Shown: piece by piece, positions 3,771 through 26,573 of the stretch | Position numbering within the stretch: the stretch's first letter is position 1 | Layout: each line of letters starts with the position of its first letter | Origin: a virus | DNA length: 50,328 nt | IMG/VR virus record: IMGVR_UViG_3300037200_000052 | Coordinates: 1 to 50,328 of that record | Strand: one strand, 5' to 3' | The notes under the pieces: generated by a model | Database searches by the model: none | What the model was told of the DNA's origin: nothing | The model's input: the letters and a program-made list of their open reading frames with translations, nothing else | Program-made: the position numbers and the translations under genes

Positions 3771-5702
3771 TTATTGCACGTTGGTTTGGGTGCCCATGGT
3801 AATCACAGGCTCGGCTGTCGTGGCCGGCGAGGTAGCGATGTTCTTGATGGCCGGGAACGCGGGCGGGAAATAGACCTCCGCCAGTTGTTCCGAGTACACG
3901 CCGTTCTCATAGCGCCGGGTGCGAATCGGCCATTGGAAAGCGTAGTAGTCACGGCGGGCGCGGACCTGCGCCAGATTGCCGACGTTGTTCATCGCGTAGG
4001 GCAGTGTCTCGGTCCAGCCCAGGGCATTACCCGGAGGTAGATAAGGGTGCACGATGATATCCACGGAACTCTGGAACGCGAAGAACGGATTGATGAGCTT
4101 CGGAATCTGGAATCCACCCACGATGCGATTGGTTTCTCCACCCTCATAACCCTCAATCATGCGGACCAGAGGAGCACCGCCATTCGCAACCACCAGGTTC
4201 TTGATCGCCTGTCCAACATCGGCGGAAACGTAGAACCGCTGTGGCCCGAACTTCCATTTGGTCCAGAGCGTATAGAACATGGTGTTGAACGTGGTGATTC
4301 CACCGGCGCCATCGGATGTCATCACGGCGCCGTCGAGCGAGGCGCTGTATCCGCCCGGGAAGGTGCCGGACTGCGAGACATTGTTTCCTTGGAAGAAGTT
4401 GTTGCCACCGGGCACGCTGGCCGGATTGATATATGCCGACAGGCTCCCGAGCGCCTGCGTCCAGATACCGTCGAACACGAGAATGTTGGCGCTGCGGTCG
4501 TTGTTCACGAGATCCGTGGGCAACCATGCCAAATTCGTATAGGTCAGCGCGCCGAGCACGCATGAATTTAGGTTGCTGTAACCGGCGAACTGATATTGTC
4601 CGGTTGAAGCTGTGGCCAAAAACCAGCAATAGGCATAGGCGTTCGGTATGCTCGTGCAGGATGCGGTAATGTATCCGCCCGTGCTGCTTGTGCCGGACGA
4701 ACTGGCGGCGCTCGCCTTGCTGCAACCGTTGTTATAAACGGTCGTGGTGCCGTCGAGATTCTGGCGCGTAATGGTCGCGGTGCCGGCAGCGCTCAGGAGC
4801 GATCCGCCCGTTGTCGCCAGAGAGGTGTTTCCCGTGGGATCGACAATGCGAGTCATATCCATGCTCAGGGCCACAACCTTTAGGTAATAGGTCGAGCCGT
4901 TGCCGAGAGTTCCACCGGTACCAGCGGGACTGGTCGTGGCCAGCGTGGCTGCCGCCGGCGCGCCGAGAGCAAAGCTGCCGTTATTGAGTTCGCTGGGCAA
5001 ACCGATGCCGCCCATGAGCAGCAACTCCTCCGAATACGTCAACGCCTGGATGGTCTGCAATACGGCGAGGGCCTTCACGTCCTGATAGCCCTGCGAGGCC
5101 GTGTCCATTTCAAACGTGACGTAGTTTTCCAAACCGATTGACCGGAATACCGCCGTCATGGCGAAATCGCGCTGACTGATCGCTCCGCCTCGTGTGCCTT
5201 CCGAAATGCCCACGCCGGTTGCGCCTTCGTTGATACTCACGACGGCGCGCCAGTTGGCAGCCGTCCCGGTGCCGGGGACGCGCGGGGTGCTGTTACGAAT
5301 CGGGCTGAATACCGGGTAGAGGAGCTTCATCGGCGCTTCGAGATCGTATTGGACCGGGCCAGTGACAGGCGATGTGGGTATGCCCCATGCCTTTGTTACA
5401 CCATCGGACGCCCGGAACATATCCAGCAATTCCAGATAAGCGCGGGCGGTGTTCACGTTCTGTCGAACCAGACGAAGCCCGGAGGCCACAACACTTTGCG
5501 CGCTCTGCGAGAAGTCACCCGAAACCTTGGTGAGGCCATGGGATTCCTCGGAGACGCGAGCCATTACTTCATCGTCCTTCATCTTGCGGATGGTAGAGTC
5601 GTCGGCTCGACCCCGGAGAGGCACGCGGCCCTTGGGAAGATTTCCAGAGGAAGCAATCAGGGCTTCGAGTCCGGCGTCAATCGTTTGGAATCGGGATTTC
5701 AT
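3771..5702 (-). CDS. Major capsid protein (HK97 fold) with inserted domain
   Basis: At 643 residues this is about twice the usual length. Residues 1-240 and 400-643 read as an HK97-type capsid protein: N-terminal helical arm, central sheet and C-terminal P-domain-like part (KFGPQRFYVSADVGQAIKN, ETNRIVGGFQIPKL). Residues about 245-395 are Thr/Ser/Gly-rich with strands such as GNGSTYYLKVVALSMDMT and look like an inserted Ig- or FN3-like domain, probably displayed outside. The start has AAGGAG ten bases upstream. It directly follows the protease-scaffold gene. Confidence 0.85.
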   Translation of the reverse strand: MKSRFQTIDAGLEALIASSGNLPKGRVPLRGRADDSTIRKMKDDEVMARVSEESHGLTKVSGDFSQSAQSVVASGLRLVRQNVNTARAYLELLDMFRASDGVTKAWGIPTSPVTGPVQYDLEAPMKLLYPVFSPIRNSTPRVPGTGTAANWRAVVSINEGATGVGISEGTRGGAISQRDFAMTAVFRSIGLENYVTFEMDTASQGYQDVKALAVLQTIQALTYSEELLLMGGIGLPSELNNGSFALGAPAAATLATTSPAGTGGTLGNGSTYYLKVVALSMDMTRIVDPTGNTSLATTGGSLLSAAGTATITRQNLDGTTTVYNNGCSKASAASSSGTSSTGGYITASCTSIPNAYAYCWFLATASTGQYQFAGYSNLNSCVLGALTYTNLAWLPTDLVNNDRSANILVFDGIWTQALGSLSAYINPASVPGGNNFFQGNNVSQSGTFPGGYSASLDGAVMTSDGAGGITTFNTMFYTLWTKWKFGPQRFYVSADVGQAIKNLVVANGGAPLVRMIEGYEGGETNRIVGGFQIPKLINPFFAFQSSVDIIVHPYLPPGNALGWTETLPYAMNNVGNLAQVRARRDYYAFQWPIRTRRYENGVYSEQLAEVYFPPAFPAIKNIATSPATTAEPVITMGTQTNVQ

Positions 5703-13531: not shown

Positions 13532-14266
13532 ATGAAAGCCATCGGTTACATCCGCGTGTCCACCGAAGAACAGGCCCGGGACGGTCAATCCCTCGAACGC
13601 CAGCAAGCCCTGATCCGCGCCGAGTCGGACCGCCAGCACTGGGAACTGACTTCCATCCTCCGCGATGAAGGCGTGTCCGGCGGCAAACCCGCCGCCAAAC
13701 GCCCCGGGTTCTCGGCTCTCACCGACGCCATCCGAACGCGCGCCGCCGAAGTCGTTGTTGTCTCGGACATCTCCCGTCTCTCCCGCAGCCAGAAAGATAC
13801 CCTGATCTTCATCGAGGACGTGTGCCTGCCTTCGCACGCGCACCTGTATGCCATCGACAAGGGGTTCATCGAGAACAATACCGTGTCCGGTACCATGGAT
13901 CTCACCCTGCGCTCCCTGTTGGCCGAGGTTTACCGCAAGGAGATCAGTGAAAAAACCCTCCGGGCCATGGCCTTCAAACGTCAGCGCGGGGAATTGCTCG
14001 GGGGCTCAGGGCCTTTCGGGTTTTGCTCGGTCGATAACGGTAAACGTCGCATCGACCGGGATGGCCAGGAACGTATCATTTTCGACCTGGTACCATTGCC
14101 AGAAGAGCAGGCCACCATCCATAGGATTACAGCCCTTCACAAAGCAGGCGCCAGCCTTGCCGTTATCGCCCGCATACTCACCACCGATCTAGTCCCCACA
14201 AAACAGGGCAACTCACTCTGGTATCCATCTCAAATTAAAAGACTTGTAGAAAGAAAACAGCTATGA
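13532..14266 (+). CDS. Short serine recombinase
   Basis: A 244-residue site-specific recombinase. The N-terminal resolvase domain is intact: MKAIGYIRVSTEEQ places the catalytic Ser at 10, with SLERQQALI and SDISRLSRSQKDT following. A recombinase-type domain follows from about residue 140 (GFCSVDNGKR...AVIARILTTDLVPTKQGNSLWYPSQIKRLVERKQL). The zinc ribbon and coiled coil of large serine integrases are missing, so it is about half their length. It begins the only plus-strand operon near the terminase genes, divergent from terL, and is coupled by ATGA to the next gene. Confidence 0.85.
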   Translation: MKAIGYIRVSTEEQARDGQSLERQQALIRAESDRQHWELTSILRDEGVSGGKPAAKRPGFSALTDAIRTRAAEVVVVSDISRLSRSQKDTLIFIEDVCLPSHAHLYAIDKGFIENNTVSGTMDLTLRSLLAEVYRKEISEKTLRAMAFKRQRGELLGGSGPFGFCSVDNGKRRIDRDGQERIIFDLVPLPEEQATIHRITALHKAGASLAVIARILTTDLVPTKQGNSLWYPSQIKRLVERKQL

Positions 14267-14646
14267 ACTTTTGGGATGAACAGGTTCTCTGGATTGCTTC
14301 CCACACCGACCGCCCACGCTATTCGGTATTTGCGTTGCTCTGGGAATGGAAACTGTTTCGAGATGCAGAAAAAATCAGTCACTCATGCAAAAAACGCCTG
14401 AAATCTCAAGAACGCCGTCATGCAATCCGTTTTGAAAAACGACTGCGAAAAATAGTGTCCGAAACCAAAACGGCGCTTCGGGAAACGCAGCGTACAAGTC
14501 CAGTCATACTACGCCAACTCAGGAAAGATCGTCGCGACTTCTTTGTTGCACGAGATGATCCAAAACGTCCCGTAAATATCTGCCCCGATCTCTGGTCGGA
14601 ACTCAAAAAAACAAAACGATGGGCTGAGAATCGAGGAATAAAATAA
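14263..14646 (+). CDS. Basic helical protein in the recombinase operon
   Basis: A 127-residue protein starts MNFWDEQVLWIASHTD and overlaps the recombinase stop by ATGA and the next gene by TAATG. The middle is strongly basic and helical (KKRLKSQERRHAIRFEKRLRKIV). It may be a DNA-binding partner of the recombinase, such as a directionality factor. No family is recognised, and the role is inferred from coupling alone. Confidence 0.6.
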   Translation: MNFWDEQVLWIASHTDRPRYSVFALLWEWKLFRDAEKISHSCKKRLKSQERRHAIRFEKRLRKIVSETKTALRETQRTSPVILRQLRKDRRDFFVARDDPKRPVNICPDLWSELKKTKRWAENRGIK

Positions 14647-14780
14647 TGTCCCGCCCACGCAAATCTTCCAAAGGCAAGGTCATCAAAATATCCGTTTCCA
14701 TCACGCCGGAAGCCCTCAAAAAACTGCCCAAAAAAGGCCGAAGCGCGTTCGTTGACCGGTTACTCCTGAGAAAGGGGTAG
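14646..14780 (+). CDS. Small ribbon-helix-helix-like DNA-binding protein, 44 aa
   Basis: The ORF starts at the ATG of a TAATG overlap. After a basic arm (MSRPRKSSKGK) comes a short strand (VIKISVSI), a helix (TPEALKKL) and a second helix (GRSAFVDRLLLRKG). This is the ribbon-helix-helix layout of Arc/CopG repressors. Being last in the recombinase operon it may autoregulate it. A palindrome (14798-14815) lies 18 nt beyond its stop. Confidence 0.65.
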   Translation: MSRPRKSSKGKVIKISVSITPEALKKLPKKGRSAFVDRLLLRKG

Positions 14781-14791
14781 TGGGCTACTTT
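14777..14791 (+). repeat. Dispersed 15-bp repeat GTAGTGGGCTACTTT, copy a
   Basis: The copy covers the TAG stop of the 44-residue RHH-like gene. An identical copy is at 26050-26064. One-mismatch and two-mismatch copies on the opposite strand are at 26433-26447 and 16922-16936. The GTAG/CTAC arms could form a tetraloop hairpin. Confidence 0.55.
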
Positions 14792-15612: not shown

Positions 15613-15641
15613 AGCATACATTCTGGCCGAACGCCTGTCAA
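15613..15641 (-). promoter_or_regulatory. Sigma70-like promoter for the terminase/late operon
   Basis: On the minus strand TTGACA (15641-15636) is followed after exactly 17 bp by TATGCT (15618-15613). The expected start point is at about 15606, next to the ATG at 15605. This would drive terS and perhaps the head genes. Confidence 0.7.
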
Positions 15642-15723: not shown

Positions 15724-15887
15724 TGTGTAAATAAAGGCAGAATCGTGTCGGAAAATCATACATTGAGTTGCAAGGGGTTACGCAATATGCGTCGGGATTG
15801 ATTACATGTCGGAAAACCTTACATATCAATTCATTAGGGAAATTGCGAGGTTGTAAGTGGCATGGGGAGTGCTATTGAAGGGGAGCA
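15724..15887 (+). repeat. Cassette leader repeat, copy 1
   Basis: First of three near-identical leaders (others at 16954-17105 and 18682-18832), each directly in front of a plus-strand gene. The conserved core runs from the TGTCGGAAAA box at 15746 to GGGGAGTGCT. Two direct boxes TGTCGGAAAATCATACAT (15746) and TGTCGGAAAACCTTACAT (15807) lie 61 bp apart within it. A TTGATT hexamer precedes the second box. It likely holds promoter and operator sites. Confidence 0.85.
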
Positions 15888-16105
15888 TGAAAAACAAAAA
15901 CATTCCGAGCGGAGTCCGAAACGCAGCAATCCACGTTTACCAGTCCGGCGCAGAGGTCGGTCGGGAGCCGATAGACTTTTCGCAGTACCGTCTGTGGGCC
16001 GAAGTCCCGAGCGAAGTGTGTGAGGCGCACCGAGTCCTGACCGCTGAGCAGATCGCACGATTCGGCCTCCAGCCCGATACCACGATCTTCGCAATTGAGG
16101 GCTGA
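15888..16105 (+). CDS. Cassette A gene 1, unknown protein, 72 aa
   Basis: The start is ATG 15888 (MKNKNIPSGVRNAAIHVYQS) just after leader copy 1, behind GGGGAG. The product is a small mixed-charge protein with VCEAHRVLTAEQIARFGLQP near its end. It ends in IFAIEG. The last 16 coding bases before the final codon equal those of the first gene of cassette B (17460-17475), which suggests the two cassettes share a frame with replaced contents. No family is recognised. Confidence 0.65.
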
Positions 16106-16127
16106 GCAATTCAGTTGAAGAAAGTTC

Positions 16128-16156
16128 TTTACAAACCGATCTGATAGGTTTATCTT
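16128..16156 (+). promoter_or_regulatory. Sigma70-like promoter inside cassette A
   Basis: TTTACA (16128-16133), a 17-bp spacer and TATCTT (16151-16156) are followed by nine A/C bases and the ATG at 16166. No Shine-Dalgarno is present, so the transcript would have a leader of only 0-3 nt. Confidence 0.5.
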
Positions 16157-16165
16157 AAAAAAACC

Positions 16166-16435
16166 ATGAAAACAAATACAGTTCGAGCAGAAATCCTTCA
16201 ACGGGCCAAAAAGTATGTGGTCATCGACGATGGTCAATTCCAGTATCCGATGCTTCTCTCGGATACCGGCGCTGACACCGCTGACACCCTGCGCGATATG
16301 GGTGCCGATGCCTACTCGCACTGGTGCGCTACTCATCCCGCCGATCTCCGGTACGCCGAGGTCGGCTCGCAGGAGTGTATCGACCTTTGCCGCGATCTGA
16401 TCGAGGCGGGCTGTATATGTTGGAGGATAGCCTAA
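16166..16435 (+). CDS. Cassette A gene 2, unknown acidic protein, 89 aa
   Basis: MKTNTVRAEILQRAKKYVVI begins a small acidic protein with four Cys, two of them in the C-terminal ECIDLCRDLIEAGCICWRIA. A promoter lies directly upstream and no ribosome site is seen, fitting leaderless translation. The next gene starts 2 nt after its stop. Function unknown. Confidence 0.65.
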   Translation: MKTNTVRAEILQRAKKYVVIDDGQFQYPMLLSDTGADTADTLRDMGADAYSHWCATHPADLRYAEVGSQECIDLCRDLIEAGCICWRIA

Positions 16436-16437
16436 GC

Positions 16438-16761
16438 ATGGAGACCTTGCTCGTGTCGCGTGATGTCCGGTTCCGGTGCCCGCATTGCCACAAATGGATG
16501 CGGGTCCTGAAGCCGAATGCACCTCCTGACCGGCGTGCGCTGCTGTCGGGCGATCCGGGAGCACCACGGCGTCCGGGCAGGCTCAGAGGCAGCCGCAACA
16601 GACACCTGCATGGACACCAGAATCCGGCCCTGTGCGCCGAAATACACCGGATGCGACGTGGTGGCTCGACCCTACAGGCCATTGGCACCCGATTCTGCCT
16701 CACGCGCGAGCGGGTCAGGCAACTTTTGCGGGATTTCGACCCCGACGGCAGGCGAAGATGA
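16438..16761 (+). CDS. Zinc-knuckle protein with sigma70 region 4-like helix-turn-helix
   Basis: About 107 residues from ATG 16438; an in-frame ATG at 16417 is also possible. Near the N-terminus lies CPHCHKWM, a CxxC zinc-knuckle-like segment. A Pro/Arg-rich linker follows. The C-terminal part STLQAIGTRFCLTRERVRQL matches the helix-turn-helix of sigma70 region 4, which reads the -35 box. A -35-binding regulator is plausible, perhaps acting on the cassette leaders. It overlaps the next gene by ATGA. Confidence 0.65.
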   Translation: METLLVSRDVRFRCPHCHKWMRVLKPNAPPDRRALLSGDPGAPRRPGRLRGSRNRHLHGHQNPALCAEIHRMRRGGSTLQAIGTRFCLTRERVRQLLRDFDPDGRRR

Positions 16762-16928
16762 AATGTCCTCATTGTCAGCGTGAGATAAACGTCGGTTCGT
16801 TGCTCGGGCCGATCCGTAGCGAACGCAAGGCCGCGTCCAGCCGAGCCAACGGTCTGAGACCCTGTGCGCCCGGCAAACACCGTGGCCGGCCAAAAAAACT
16901 GAGCGATAAAGGTGCAGTTTCAAAATAG
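16758..16928 (+). CDS. Zinc-ribbon/AT-hook-like small protein, paralogue 1
   Basis: A 56-residue protein starts MKCPHCQREINVGSLLG. A CxxC knuckle is followed by a basic stretch and the AT-hook-like HRGRPKKLSDK. The gene at 18535-18678 encodes a clear paralogue (MKCPHCKRSLNVGALLGSI...GGRPRKK). Both close a cassette just before the next leader. A minor-groove DNA-binding role is inferred. The stop overlaps a copy of the 15-bp dispersed repeat. Confidence 0.65.
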   Translation: MKCPHCQREINVGSLLGPIRSERKAASSRANGLRPCAPGKHRGRPKKLSDKGAVSK

Positions 16929-16936
16929 GCCACTAC
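16922..16936 (-). repeat. Dispersed 15-bp repeat, variant copy d
   Basis: On the minus strand it reads GTAGTGGCCTATTTT, two mismatches from copy a. It covers the TAG stop of the gene at 16758-16928. Confidence 0.45.
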
Positions 16937-16953
16937 CTGGATTTCTGTCGGAT

Positions 16954-17105
16954 TGCCAGAATGTCGTCGGAAAATCAGACATTGAGTTGCAAGGGGTTAC
17001 AGAAACAGCGTCGGGATTGATTACATGTCGGAAAACCTTACATATCAATTCATTAAGGAAATTGCATGGTTGGAAGTGGCATGAGGAGTGCTATTCAGAG
17101 GGAGT
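16954..17105 (+). repeat. Cassette leader repeat, copy 2
   Basis: Nearly identical to copies 1 and 3 over about 130 bp, with both TGTCGGAAAA-type boxes (the first as CGTCGGAAAA). It differs from copies 1 and 3 at the CGCAATATGCG stretch, here AGAAACAGCG, so that small dyad is not essential. It contains a possible leader ORF beginning MVGSGMRSAI. Confidence 0.85.
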
Positions 17106-17480
17106 ATGAAAATGAAACTTAGCAAAAATGACCGAAACGATCCGCGCTCGCCAATTTGGAAGCGGCTCTATGCTTGCCTTACCAAAAACAGTTTTCGGGT
17201 GGGCAATTCGAGTTTTCCATTTAGTGGCGACGCTTGGAACACCTGCAGCATCGCCGGCCTTGACTCGCCGGAGGTGAATAGAAGCCTTCAAAAGCTACTG
17301 GAACACACCAAGCGGGGTCGGGAACGCGAAATGATTCTTATCTGCGCTGAACTCGGGCGCTTCTGGCTCGATGCACCAGAAAATAGTCGCCATCTATGCC
17401 GCGCCGACGTTCAGAAAAGCGTCGATGGACTCACGGCTATTGCTAACCGATACGTCGAAATCTTCGCAATTGAGGTCTGA
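17106..17480 (+). CDS. Cassette B gene 1, unknown protein, 124 aa
   Basis: The start is ATG 17106 (MKMKLSKNDRNDPRSPIWKR), directly after leader copy 2 and GGGAG. The product is helical with several Trp and Cys. It ends YVEIFAIEV, sharing its last codons at DNA level with cassette A gene 1. No family is recognised. The middle (LDSPEVNRSLQKLLEHTKRG, LGRFWLDAPENSRHLCRADV) suggests a small helical bundle. Confidence 0.65.
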   Translation: MKMKLSKNDRNDPRSPIWKRLYACLTKNSFRVGNSSFPFSGDAWNTCSIAGLDSPEVNRSLQKLLEHTKRGREREMILICAELGRFWLDAPENSRHLCRADVQKSVDGLTAIANRYVEIFAIEV

Positions 17481-17497
17481 CCTACGACAGGATATAG

Positions 17498-17516
17498 AAG
17501 GAATGACACAGTGAAA
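17498..17516 (+). promoter_or_regulatory. Repeated translation start block AAGGAATGACACAGTGAAA, copy 1
   Basis: The same 19 bases occur at 18251-18269, where they form the ribosome site and GTG start of the gene at 18264. Here the matching GTG opens a five-codon ORF (GTG AAA AGG AGA ATG TAG) ending just before the ATG at 17531. It may be a leader peptide or a relic of a replaced gene. Confidence 0.5.
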
Positions 17517-17530
17517 AGGAGAATGTAGTT

Positions 17531-18160
17531 ATGATCAAAAAACTCGGAACCATTGAGCAAGAGGTCAAAGCCTGCCGCGAAGCTTTTGCCGCCTCAAAAG
17601 TAGGCGATATGGTATGGCTTTGCCACCATGGAGTGCTTTGCGAGGATCTTACCGAGCCCCCAGAGGCCAGAATTGCCTACATTTTGGCATACAAGCCGGA
17701 ACATGAGCAAGCCCGACGGTTGCGCGAGTTTCGTCCGGTCAAAAGCAAAAAGGCCGTCGCCAAATGGCAGGCCGAGTGCGACGCGATGAGCGCCAAACGG
17801 CAGGCCAAGCGCGACGCGGTGAGCGCCAAATGGCGGGCCAAACGCGATGCGGTTGCCGCCAAATGGCGGCCCGGGTACGACGCGGTGAACGCCAAATGGC
17901 AGGCCAAACACGACGCGGTGGACGCCAAATGGCAGGCCGAGTGCGACGCGGTTGCCGCCAAATGGCGGGCCGAGCTCGACGCGGCGGACGCCAAATGGCA
18001 GGCCGAGCGCGATGCGGTGGCCGCCAAATGGCGGGCCGAGCGCGATGCGATGAACGCCAGATGGCGGGCCGAGGACGACGCGATGGATGCCAAACTGGAA
18101 GCACTGCACAAAAAAGAATATCCGTTCACGCGCTGGAACGGAAAGACGATGTTTGTCTGA
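17531..18160 (+). CDS. Hendecad-repeat coiled-coil protein
   Basis: A 209-residue protein starts at ATG 17531 behind GGAG. Residues 1-76 form a non-repeated domain (VGDMVWLCHHGVLCEDLTEP). Then ten copies of an 11-residue unit follow, of the type AKWQAECDAVA, with Trp at the third place, and a short tail (HKKEYPFTRWNGKTMFV). Eleven-residue repeats usually form right-handed coiled coils. Repeats are nearly identical in DNA, so the number of units may vary. Partner and role are unknown. Confidence 0.75.
   Translation: MIKKLGTIEQEVKACREAFAASKVGDMVWLCHHGVLCEDLTEPPEARIAYILAYKPEHEQARRLREFRPVKSKKAVAKWQAECDAMSAKRQAKRDAVSAKWRAKRDAVAAKWRPGYDAVNAKWQAKHDAVDAKWQAECDAVAAKWRAELDAADAKWQAERDAVAAKWRAERDAMNARWRAEDDAMDAKLEALHKKEYPFTRWNGKTMFV
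17759..18088 (+). repeat. Ten 33-bp tandem repeats inside the coiled-coil gene
   Basis: Units begin GCCAAATGGCAGGCCGAG and encode A-K-W-[QR]-A-[EK]-x-D-A-x-x. Changes are mostly confined to codons 7 and 10-11. The 33-bp period is a multiple of three, so other frames remain open as well and produce false ORFs. Confidence 0.85.
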
Positions 18161-18250
18161 CCTTCGCGCCTATCCGCCCGCGATTAGATCACGGGCGGTT
18201 GCGCGGCGGGGAGTGAGAGCGGTGGTTCAATGACGACCACGGCAAACCAA

Positions 18251-18269
18251 AAGGAATGACACAGTGAAA
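18251..18269 (+). promoter_or_regulatory. Repeated translation start block, copy 2
   Basis: Identical to 17498-17516. AAGGA lies eight bases ahead of the GTG start at 18264. Confidence 0.5.
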
Positions 18270-18473
18270 TGGAATCTAAAATTTGAGAGCGGCGTTTGCT
18301 GGCGTCAGCCGGGCGCAAGGAAGCCCGTTGAGTTTGACACGGTAGAGTTGGCTTTGGCTTCCGCCAAAACTTCCGCAGATCAACTAGCGCGTGCTGGCTA
18401 TGCCAGTGAAGCGCGTTTGTTCAAAGCGGCACAAGCGGTCAAGATTGATATGCGCTGGGGAAAGGACAAATGA
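18264..18473 (+). CDS. Cassette B gene 3, unknown protein, 69 aa
   Basis: GTG start at 18264 with AAGGA correctly spaced. The small alpha/beta protein has VELALASAKTSADQLARAGY and a C-terminal KIDMRWGKDK. It resembles short phage proteins with one sheet and a helix but has no known family. About 60 nt separate it from the zinc-ribbon paralogue. Confidence 0.6.
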   Translation: MKWNLKFESGVCWRQPGARKPVEFDTVELALASAKTSADQLARAGYASEARLFKAAQAVKIDMRWGKDK

Positions 18474-18534
18474 ACCGACTCTCCAATACTGACCGCTCGC
18501 GGGTTGTTGCCTGCATTGTCGAGGACAACAGCCG

Positions 18535-18678
18535 ATGAAATGCCCACATTGTAAGCGGAGTCTGAATGTCGGGGCTTTGCTTGGCTCGATAAAGTCCAAG
18601 GCCAAATCCGATGCGTCGCGCCAGAACGGGAAGCTTGGGGGACGCCCTCGAAAGAAGCCCACCGAACAGAAGGGTTAA
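18535..18678 (+). CDS. Zinc-ribbon/AT-hook-like small protein, paralogue 2
   Basis: A 47-residue ORF from ATG 18535 to TAA 18678. It is a paralogue of the protein at 16758-16928: both share M-K-C-P-H-C, the N-V-G-[SA]-L-L-G segment and a basic G-R-P-[KR]-K AT-hook-like motif. It closes cassette B, four bases before leader copy 3. No ribosome site stands out. Confidence 0.65.
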   Translation: MKCPHCKRSLNVGALLGSIKSKAKSDASRQNGKLGGRPRKKPTEQKG

Positions 18679-18681
18679 TAA

Positions 18682-18832
18682 TGTGTAAAGAAAGGCAGAA
18701 TCGTGTCGGAAAAGCAGACATTGAGTTGCAACGGGTTACGCAATATGCGTCGGGATTGATTACATGTCGGAAAACCTTACATATCAATTCCTTGGGCAAA
18801 TTGCATGGTTGGACCTGGCATGAGGAGTGCTA
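18682..18832 (+). repeat. Cassette leader repeat, copy 3
   Basis: Copy 3 shares the upstream TGTGTAAA...AAAGGCAGAATCG stretch with copy 1 and the GCATGGTTGG stretch with copy 2. It therefore looks like the common ancestor type or a recombinant. It leads straight into the gene at 18836. The possible leader ORF here reads MVGPGMRSANYV and overlaps that gene's start. Confidence 0.85.
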
Positions 18833-18835
18833 ACT

Positions 18836-19192
18836 ATGTATGAAATGAACAAAATCAAACACAATAATAACTGCGGAGAGAGAAGGCAGGAGAACCAAAT
18901 GAATTACGAAAATCGAAAATACGGAATCAAAATTGAAGGGGATACAATCACCGCCCATTTTGGTGCGTTTGACCAAAACGAATACCGCACCCAAGCTAAC
19001 ACCGAAGTATGGGGATACCCAGCGAAAACCATCGCCTTCTGGAAAAGCCCGAAGTCGCGGGGGGGAGGATGGGTTGGCGTGAATCTCGAAACCGATGCCG
19101 TTTCCAACCACACCGAGCTTTATCTTCTTCTTCACGAACTTCGGGGCGAGTCCCAAACCGGTGACGCCGTGGACAAGGCAGGTGGGGAGTGA
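18836..19192 (+). CDS. Cassette C gene 1, unknown protein, 118 aa
   Basis: ATG 18836 follows AGGAG with 8-nt spacing. A second in-frame ATG at 18899 (MNYENRKYGIKIEGDTITAH) has an even better AGGAG with 6-nt spacing and would give 97 residues. The sequence is beta-rich with a Gly/Trp loop (SRGGGWVGVNLE). No family is recognised. The next gene overlaps by GTGA. Confidence 0.65.
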   Translation: MYEMNKIKHNNNCGERRQENQMNYENRKYGIKIEGDTITAHFGAFDQNEYRTQANTEVWGYPAKTIAFWKSPKSRGGGWVGVNLETDAVSNHTELYLLLHELRGESQTGDAVDKAGGE

Positions 19193-19308
19193 ACCCAAAT
19201 CGACATCCCACCGGCGCGTTTGTCGGCATGGTAATAATCCTCACCCTCGCCTTCTGGCTGTCATGGCTGGCCTATGCTATTTACAACTGGCAGATCGTGA
19301 AACCATGA
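19189..19308 (+). CDS. Small single-pass membrane protein, 39 aa
   Basis: A GTG start at 19189 overlaps the upstream stop (GTGA) and its own stop overlaps the next ATG. Residues about 11-32 (FVGMVIILTLAFWLSWLAYA) form one hydrophobic helix. It could act at the host membrane, for example in exclusion or inhibition. That is speculation from cargo-like context. Confidence 0.6.
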   Translation: MNPNRHPTGAFVGMVIILTLAFWLSWLAYAIYNWQIVKP

Positions 19309-19502
19309 CCCCGCCCATCACCGTTGCGGCCAAGAAACTGATTGCCCAGCTATCTGTCGAGGGCCGGGGAACGTATGCCGAGATCGTCAATGTATGCCTT
19401 CGGGAAATGGGAACGCCACTGGTCAACGGGTTGCAATGGCATGACGTTAGGTTTTGCCTTCGGTCGGGACTTCTGCCGATCAAAGAAAGCGTGACGAAAT
19501 GA
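19305..19502 (+). CDS. Cassette C gene 3, small helical protein, 65 aa
   Basis: MTPPITVAAKKLIAQLSVEG starts at the ATG of an ATGA overlap. The product is helical with VCLREMGTPLVNGLQWHDVR. It might be a small winged or helix-turn-helix protein. No family is certain. Its 3' end overlaps the convergent HNH gene by 23 nt. Confidence 0.6.
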   Translation: MTPPITVAAKKLIAQLSVEGRGTYAEIVNVCLREMGTPLVNGLQWHDVRFCLRSGLLPIKESVTK

Positions 19503-19863
19503 ATCTATCCCGAGCCACCATCACCAAATCTATCAGCTTACGACCTTCTGCCGGGTTCTGGTGTACCCAATCATGGTGCGCTCTACAAAGACAGATTCCG
19601 TTCGATTCAACGTGTCTCAAATCTGACCGCGCCTTTTTTCCCTCGATGTGGTGCGCGTGATTCGTGTTGTACCGGTCGCAGTGTGGTCTGAATACCCGAT
19701 TCCACAACTGACACTGGTTCCCATCCCTCTCTAGTACCGCCTTCCTCCACTTCGCATCCAGGTACTCGACTCGCCCCCGGTTCTTCGACCGCTTCCGTAA
19801 CGGCGCCTTGCGTACACGTGGAGTTCCAACTGCGTTGAGTCTTTGTAGCCCACTACCCCCCAT
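19480..19863 (-). CDS. HNH endonuclease
   Basis: A 127-residue protein with basic N-terminus (RVRKAPLRKRSKNRGR) and an HNH core: NHAHHIEGKKARSDLRHVES, then NGICLCRAHHDWVH. The paired His, the Asn before G-I-C-L-C and the final His form the metal site. It is the last gene of the early operon, overlapping the methyltransferase gene. It could be a free-standing nicking or homing enzyme, or a packaging-associated HNH. Confidence 0.8.
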   Translation of the reverse strand: MGGSGLQRLNAVGTPRVRKAPLRKRSKNRGRVEYLDAKWRKAVLERDGNQCQLWNRVFRPHCDRYNTNHAHHIEGKKARSDLRHVESNGICLCRAHHDWVHQNPAEGRKLIDLVMVARDRFISSRFL

Positions 19864-26038: not shown

Positions 26039-26049
26039 GTGAATTTCCG

Positions 26050-26064
26050 GTAGTGGGCTACTTT
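26050..26064 (+). repeat. Dispersed 15-bp repeat, copy b
   Basis: GTAGTGGGCTACTTT, identical to copy a. It covers the stop of the gene at 26058-26414 and, with copy c, frames that gene as an inverted pair. Confidence 0.55.
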
Positions 26065-26423: not shown

Positions 26424-26573
26424 TCAATTCTCAAAATAGCCCACTACCGAATTTCCCCCACTCTGAAAAGACAACCCGGTCGCGTCAAGCTGGTCGCAAG
26501 AATGGAATGGGGTGAGGCCCACACTCCTGCGCGACCGGGTTGTAAATTGTTGATTGAAGCGACCAGCTTTCAT
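26424..26573 (-). CDS. Doubtful 49-aa ORF across the dyad region
   Basis: The frame MKAGRFNQQFTTRSRRSVGL to VVGYFEN is open over the whole structured segment, but the GGGAG directly abuts the ATG and the composition is unremarkable. It may be an accident of the repeats. Confidence 0.2.
   Translation of the reverse strand: MKAGRFNQQFTTRSRRSVGLTPFHSCDQLDATGLSFQSGGNSVVGYFEN
26433..26447 (-). repeat. Dispersed 15-bp repeat, copy c
   Basis: On the minus strand it reads GTAGTGGGCTATTTT, one mismatch from copy b, with which it shares an AATTTC-like flank. Confidence 0.55.
26471..26569. other. Two interleaved perfect dyads (pseudoknot-like or switch element)
   Basis: The 14-bp arms ACAACCCGGTCGCG (26471-26484) and CGCGACCGGGTTGT (26530-26543) interlock with the 11-bp arms AAGCTGGTCGC (26487-26497) and GCGACCAGCTT (26559-26569). 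The order 5'A-5'B-3'A-3'B is that of a pseudoknot or of mutually exclusive hairpins. On the minus strand the last arm is followed by CTTTTC. It lies in the leader of the zinc-protein gene. Confidence 0.6.

Follow-up and report, generated by a model that had tools for sequence, protein, structure and literature searches.

What is a phage doing with the same piece of non-coding DNA in three places, each time in front of different small genes? The question arises from an array of three cassettes, A, B and C, in a soil phage (IMG/VR record IMGVR_UViG_3300037200_000052, positions 1 to 50,328; the whole of this stretch of 50,328 nucleotides is called the window below). Each cassette is headed by a copy of one leader. 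We propose, with a probability of roughly 0.72, that the leaders are promoters for the sigma-54 (RpoN) polymerase carrying PEP-CTERM boxes for the host regulator PrsR, or for a close relative of the NtrC type, which would put three operons under one host signal. An earlier description made from the letters alone (the sequence-only reading) had already taken the leader for a regulatory unit holding different operons under common control, and the finding of the same promoter elements before three different contents supports it in this.

Anatomy of the leaders

The three copies begin at 15738, 16957 and 18696 in a common register of 161 nt, over which a repeat search gave 84-88% identity; they are as near to identical as had been claimed. 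Aligned, they form one solid block, with leaders A and C agreeing for about 20 nt further upstream. From box 1 to the -12 element, a block of 128 nt, the pairwise comparisons give 116, 116 and 114 identical positions (89-91%), and in the sequence flanking this block identity is 28-29%, ie chance level. Plus-strand genes do follow the leaders, as the sequence-only reading had it, but the similarity does not run up to them: it stops with the -12 element, 13 nt ahead of the start codon. Beyond that element only two of 13 positions are identical among the leaders, and an ATG stands at predicted +4 in all three, so that the spacing to the start has been kept while the sequence there has not.

Boxes of the TGTCGGAAAA type (TGTCGGAAAANNNTACAT type) with no more than two mismatches occur six times in the window. 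All six lie inside leaders, two in each and 61 bp apart, just as had been read from the letters. When three mismatches are allowed there are eight matches in the window, where 1.2 would be expected by chance, and no shuffled sequence reached eight. The boxes are direct repeats of 17 nt, starting at -138 and -77 relative to the predicted start of transcription (+1), and box 2 is the same in all three leaders. The consensus for integration host factor (IHF) is WATCAANNNNTTR; it is matched perfectly, immediately 3' of box 2, in three of three leaders, and shuffled spacers match as well in only 0.4-2% of cases. The -24/-12 element TGGCATGRGGAGTGCT follows 34 nt past box 2. Measured against TGGCACG-N4-TTGCW, with GG at -24 and GC at -12, 10 nt apart, it agrees at 10 of 12 informative positions with the GG/GC core intact in every leader. 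Sites of equal quality number six in the window, both strands included, and three of these are the leader sites. No sigma-70 site was found within the leaders at threshold.

Conservation over the three leaders is 17/17 for box 2 and 15/16 for the sigma-54 element; the spacer between IHF site and sigma-54 element, at 14/21, is the least conserved portion ahead of -12. Upstream activator sites with an intervening IHF site, as in sigma-54 promoters, are present by sequence in all the leaders, and each has the predicted anatomy of an enhancer-dependent sigma-54 promoter.

Relation to PEP-CTERM promoters

The PEP-CTERM box was described as a 17-nt motif ending TTTACA, single or repeated, and is the predicted site of PrsR (Haft et al. 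2006, PMC1569441). In the promoters concerned, the last box is followed by the sigma-54 motif after 32-92 nt, the start codon is 23-221 nt beyond this motif, and some few of the sites stand ahead of other genes (PMC1569441). For one such gene, pepA of Aquincola tertiaricarbonis, a -24/-12 promoter and dependence on RpoN have been shown (PMC9850573). The leader box TGTCGGAAAACCTTACA also has 17 nt, is present twice per leader and ends in CTTACA, in agreement with motif 1 as described by Haft, and the spacer from box to sigma-54 element, which is 34 nt in every leader, falls inside the published range. The genes that the leaders precede are not recognisable PEP-CTERM genes: no family match was obtained for A1, B1 or C1.

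A scan of viral contigs for the box followed by a sigma-54 element provided the closest comparison. In contig L064 the box, a perfect IHF site and a sigma-54 element, with a spacer of 61, stand ahead of two adjacent genes; one of the two was recognised only later, through a box with one mismatch. Both products carry the PEP-CTERM signal, scoring 22.7 and 22.5 bits against the TIGR02595 cut-off of 16. Since a box of the leader type, together with IHF and sigma-54 sites, thus precedes real PEP-CTERM genes, the leader box can be identified, to the extent that sequence allows, with the PEP-CTERM box.

The same design in other viral contigs

The combination of box and sigma-54 element was found in six further viral contigs, L050, L062, L063, L065, L066 and, with a longer spacer, L022, where unrelated genes follow it. 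L065, a contig of 4.4 kb, is putatively viral, and L050, L062 and L063 are likewise counted as putatively viral. Two good boxes are present in L062 and L065 also, and a perfect IHF site in L065 and L066. As a control, the long-spacer scan was run with the box reversed and returned zero matches. The genes after these promoters encode small proteins or, in L065 and L066, long alanine-rich proteins which recall the helical protein B2 of the array; those tested match no PHROG. In L066 the promoter is directed away from a unit that includes the large terminase and a repressor-like gene, in L022 it lies 1.9 kb ahead of the large terminase, and the array in the window diverges from the small terminase gene. 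Because the terminases of the window and of the other contigs match different PHROGs, one type of host promoter seems to have been adopted repeatedly. A broader view, which we advance tentatively and at less than even odds, is that a set of unrelated phages whose hosts form exopolysaccharide have put accessory operons, often close to their packaging genes, under host PrsK-PrsR-RpoN control, so that these operons come on only while the exosortase/exopolysaccharide coat is being built, and that the promoter spreads as a gene-recruiting module.

The leader itself is another matter. The sequence-only reading had looked to other phages for the same leader before different genes; what other phages have in common with this one is the promoter design, and the two-box leader was met with only in a second copy of this phage. 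The two-box pattern was not found in the viral contigs, the leader gave no blastn match among 50,697 annotated phages, and four phages that are kin by terminase (40-45% identity) contain no good box. Most single-box matches from the viral-contig scan, having neither a second good box nor a sigma-54 site, look like chance and were set aside.

Sigma-54-like elements that lack a box were also noticed. In phage contig L068 one, TGGCACGACGACTGCT, lies at 472-487, upstream of the first small genes. In L050 another, TGGCATGGCACATGCT, stands before the second gene and is followed by TATAnACAAATTCGTCAATATGAAAA, as is the case after the first L050 element.

Activator, host and alternative explanations

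No sigma-54 activator domain was found to be encoded by the phage, which does not encode PrsK or PrsR either. The activator must therefore come from the host, and a host regulator is to be expected because the boxes match activator sites that also precede bacterial PEP-CTERM genes; PrsR is the most likely candidate. In the mechanism we propose, the two 17-nt boxes would bind phosphorylated host PrsR, or a closely related NtrC-type regulator with identical specificity, and IHF would bend the DNA at the site right after box 2. At the -24/-12 element the activator would then open the RpoN polymerase, with transcription beginning about 3 nt ahead of the first start codon in each operon. With three copies of the promoter, three differing small accessory operons would come under the host PEP-CTERM/exosortase (exopolysaccharide, floc, biofilm) signal, and their products would presumably act during that host state.

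Several observations weigh against this proposal. At 34 nt the spacer only just exceeds the shortest one published, and in all three leaders the start codon follows the promoter by 13 nt, where no published distance is below 23. Leaders B and C have a degraded box 1, with CAGACA in place of TTACA. The box was compared with the motif of Haft through its description and a sequence test, the logo in the figure being unreadable, and the element-by-element conservation was computed from three related copies. The IHF consensus is absent from L022, L050, L062 and L063. The remaining points concern the host. Over the stretch read, contig L067 (PMSX01000018.1) is identical to the window; it was deposited as part of palsa_124, a metagenome-assembled genome (MAG) of the acidobacterial Bryobacterales. 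Apart from the phage contig this MAG contains no box, neither PrsR nor PrsK reaches the cut-off in it, and the promoter with the usual spacing was not found in 396 genomes of the phylum. It would be simplest to suppose that L067 was wrongly binned and that the phage infects a PEP-CTERM bacterium, probably one of the Proteobacteria. The alternative to misbinning is another activator of the same specificity.

That alternative leads to an explanation in which the leaders are sigma-54 promoters served by some other NtrC-type activator of the host, for example in Acidobacteriota, and the link with exopolysaccharide and PEP-CTERM is a coincidence. The MAG encodes many NtrC-type regulators, the best of them scoring 419 bits to the PrsR model against a cut-off of 502.6, and its want of further boxes would suit such an activator. 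We nevertheless think it unlikely, since this is a specific box, which in L064 stands ahead of two PEP-CTERM genes, and the assignment to the MAG comes from binning alone, with a kin terminase absent from 149 other genomes of the order. A very small chance is given to the boxes being operators for a regulator of the phage's own, such as the zinc-ribbon or helix-turn-helix proteins of the array. The array does encode small putative DNA-binding proteins, and the sequence-only reading had them as candidates for binding the boxes. This was not supported: the boxes match activator sites before bacterial PEP-CTERM genes, box and sigma-54 element occur together in phages without those proteins, and at eight loci with zinc-ribbon relatives in other phages there is no box with a sigma-54 site after it.

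The leader could also have been no promoter at all. Were the array a recent simple triplication of one gene block, an outcome that the sequence-only reading had set against its own claim, the leader would merely be duplicated upstream sequence; the 89-91% identity of the leaders would fit, as would the features that A and B have in common, a terminal zinc-ribbon gene and the last 34 nt of gene 1. Beyond A4/B4 and those 34 nt, however, the contents are without homology, yet the leaders differ by only about 10%, and their conservation tracks the promoter elements. As the cassette contents share almost nothing, simple triplication is excluded by the comparison, and we leave it a negligible weight. 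A directly repeated, conserved non-coding stretch of about 150 bp might equally suggest an RNA element, ie a structured 5' leader, or a recombination site, but this is scarcely credible. The leaders fold no better than shuffled sequences (z 0.5, 1.1, -1.2) and have no match in Rfam, the predicted transcript begins past the conserved block, and a role in recombination alone would leave the IHF and sigma-54 consensus sites unexplained. Enhancer-dependent promoters answering to host PrsR or its relative thus remain the explanation we prefer.

Contents of the cassettes and their surroundings

The features of the array and its vicinity are given in Table 1.

Table 1. Positions of promoter elements, genes and other motifs in and around the array, numbered from the first nucleotide of the window.
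Feature	Position	Strand	Basis or remark
Leader A activator box 1, TGTCGGAAAATCATACA	15746..15762	+	motif scan, alignment
Leader A activator box 2, TGTCGGAAAACCTTACA	15807..15823	+	motif scan, alignment
Leader A IHF consensus, TATCAATTCATTA	15824..15836	+	0 mismatches to WATCAANNNNTTR; shuffles 0.4%
Leader A sigma-54 -24/-12 element, TGGCATGGGGAGTGCT	15858..15873	+	predicted start 15884
Leader B activator box 1, degraded, CGTCGGAAAATCAGACA	16965..16981	+	motif scan
Leader B activator box 2	17026..17042	+	motif scan
Leader B IHF consensus, TATCAATTCATTA	17043..17055	+	shuffles 2%
Leader B sigma-54 element, TGGCATGAGGAGTGCT	17077..17092	+	predicted start 17103
Leader C activator box 1, degraded, TGTCGGAAAAGCAGACA	18704..18720	+	motif scan
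Leader C activator box 2	18765..18781	+	motif scan
Leader C IHF consensus, TATCAATTCCTTG	18782..18794	+	shuffles 0.5%; both changes at consensus-free positions
Leader C sigma-54 element, TGGCATGAGGAGTGCT	18816..18831	+	predicted start 18842
A1, 72 aa	15887..16105	+	matches no family
A2, 89 aa	16166..16435	+	matches no family
A3, 107 aa, zinc-ribbon CPHC and weak sigma-70 region 4-like helix-turn-helix	16438..16761	+	profile match
A4, 56 aa, zinc-ribbon / basic GRP tail	16758..16928	+	paralogue of B4
B1, 124 aa (or from ATG at 17112)	17106..17480	+	matches no family; final 34 nt resemble A1
B2, 209 aa, helical, made of 33-bp (11-residue) repeats	17531..18160	+	repeat search
B3, 69 aa, GTG start	18264..18473	+	matches no family
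B4, 47 aa, zinc-ribbon / basic GRP tail	18535..18678	+	87% identical relative in phage contig L068
C1, 115 aa from ATG at predicted +4	18845..19192	+	matches no family
C2, possible 39-aa protein, GTG start, one hydrophobic helix	19189..19308	+	read from sequence
C3, 65 aa	19305..19502	+	matches no family
Sigma-70-like site of A2, TTTACA-17-TATCTT	16128-16156		consensus match, occurring at chance rate
Sigma-70-like site TTGACA-17-TATGCT	15613..15641	-	small terminase gene start, divergent from leader A
Repeat motif AGTAGCCCACTACC	14776-14789	-
Repeat motif AGTAGCCCACTACC	16924-16937	+
Repeat motif AGTAGCCCACTACC	19844-19857	+
Repeat motif AGTAGCCCACTACC	26049-26062	-
Repeat motif AGTAGCCCACTACC	26435-26448	+

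The products are small proteins: two of the zinc-ribbon kind, one zinc-ribbon/helix-turn-helix, one helical repeat, one possible one-helix membrane protein, and others. The paralogous zinc-ribbon proteins noted earlier at the ends of cassettes A and B are confirmed as such (A4 and B4 are 53% identical, E = 9e-14); B4 has no match in annotated plasmids and phages. A1 and B1 do share their 3' ends, as the sequence-only reading had stated, but the stretch is longer than the 16 bp given there, 34 nt at 85%. The contents are otherwise unrelated, as had been stated, the sole further likeness between proteins being the short CPHC motif of A3 and of A4/B4. A3, which had been called a sigma-70 region 4-like regulator, has only a weak match of that kind (PF04545, E = 4.6e-4, under the Pfam cut-off). 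Its sole match in the PDB is the sigma factor rpoD at E = 0.84, and it has no relatives among the viral contigs. C1 has an alternative start at ATG 18899, giving 97 aa, and the ribosome site is better there. Within B2, positions 17704-18132 comprise at least nine tandem 33-bp units encoding 11-residue helical repeats of the AKWQAERDAV type.

The array had been placed on the strand opposite to the rest of the phage. This holds for the array, but a block at 13532-14780, lying between the large and small terminase genes, is likewise on the plus strand; it contains a serine recombinase (244 aa, 13532-14266, PHROG 95/125) and two small genes. The TTGACA-17-TATGCT site where the small terminase gene begins is a match to the sigma-70 consensus, and such matches occur at chance rate in the region.

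A second repeat motif, AGTAGCCCACTACC, is a hairpin (GTAG-TGGG-CTAC) that is commoner than chance in the window. Eleven copies, in both orientations, are present in the L068 phage record, which also has the zinc-ribbon gene, and none was found in 12 other phage records tested; it is possibly an intergenic element resembling a stoperator or terminator. In L068 a block of 210 nt, consisting of the zinc-ribbon gene, its upstream sequence and a AGTAGCCCACTACC tail, occurs twice (1406-1615 and 4151-4360, 83% identical), a hint that the zinc-ribbon unit is duplicated or mobile in such phages.

Significance and comparison with known systems

By the usual account, phages rely on promoters of the sigma-70 type, or on a polymerase and sigma factors of their own. 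The leaders suggest that here a control system of the host for slime or biofilm decides when the genes of the array are on, and if this is true phage accessory genes are tied to the biofilm or floc state of the host. Mutants in rpoN, prsR and IHF would offer a testable handle on genes that have no known relatives, and the short DNA signature of box, IHF site and -24/-12 element could be used to find such genes in other phages and in prophages. Titles and abstracts of open-licence papers yielded nothing relevant on sigma-54 or PEP-CTERM control of phage genes. Promoters of this type are known already; that search brought up no phage that uses one three times over, for three different operons.

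The mobile regulatory cassettes that Arbiol et al. reportedly described in 2010 for T4-type phages, an early promoter plus stem-loop (PeSL), are similar to the leaders in that a promoter unit is repeated before differing accessory genes and offers homology for exchange; for the array, the swapping of contents through leader homology that the sequence-only reading suggested is conjectural. The T4-type cassettes are said to combine an early promoter of the host sigma-70 type with a stem-loop, whereas the leaders have a sigma-54 element and activator boxes and no stable fold. A PeSL is said to stand before different genes in related phages; here the same unit stands before three operons within one phage, and searches for the two-box leader found it in no other phage. 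In cluster K mycobacteriophages the 13-nt SAS element is linked to translation starts, and ESAS consists of 17-bp inverted repeats with a spacer of 4-13 bp (PMC3203893). These too are repeated elements directly upstream of differing genes, and ESAS shares the 17-bp repeat length, but the leader boxes are direct repeats 61 bp apart and are accompanied by sigma-54 and IHF sites. Closest are the PEP-CTERM/PrsK-PrsR/RpoN promoters of Proteobacteria (PMC1569441, PMC9850573), which like the leaders have a 17-nt box, sometimes repeated, and then a sigma-54 site. Unlike the promoters of Haft and of pepA, the leaders sit in a phage, in three copies, ahead of small genes without the PEP-CTERM signal; with the PEP-CTERM promoters of L064 they share the perfect IHF site between box and sigma-54 element.

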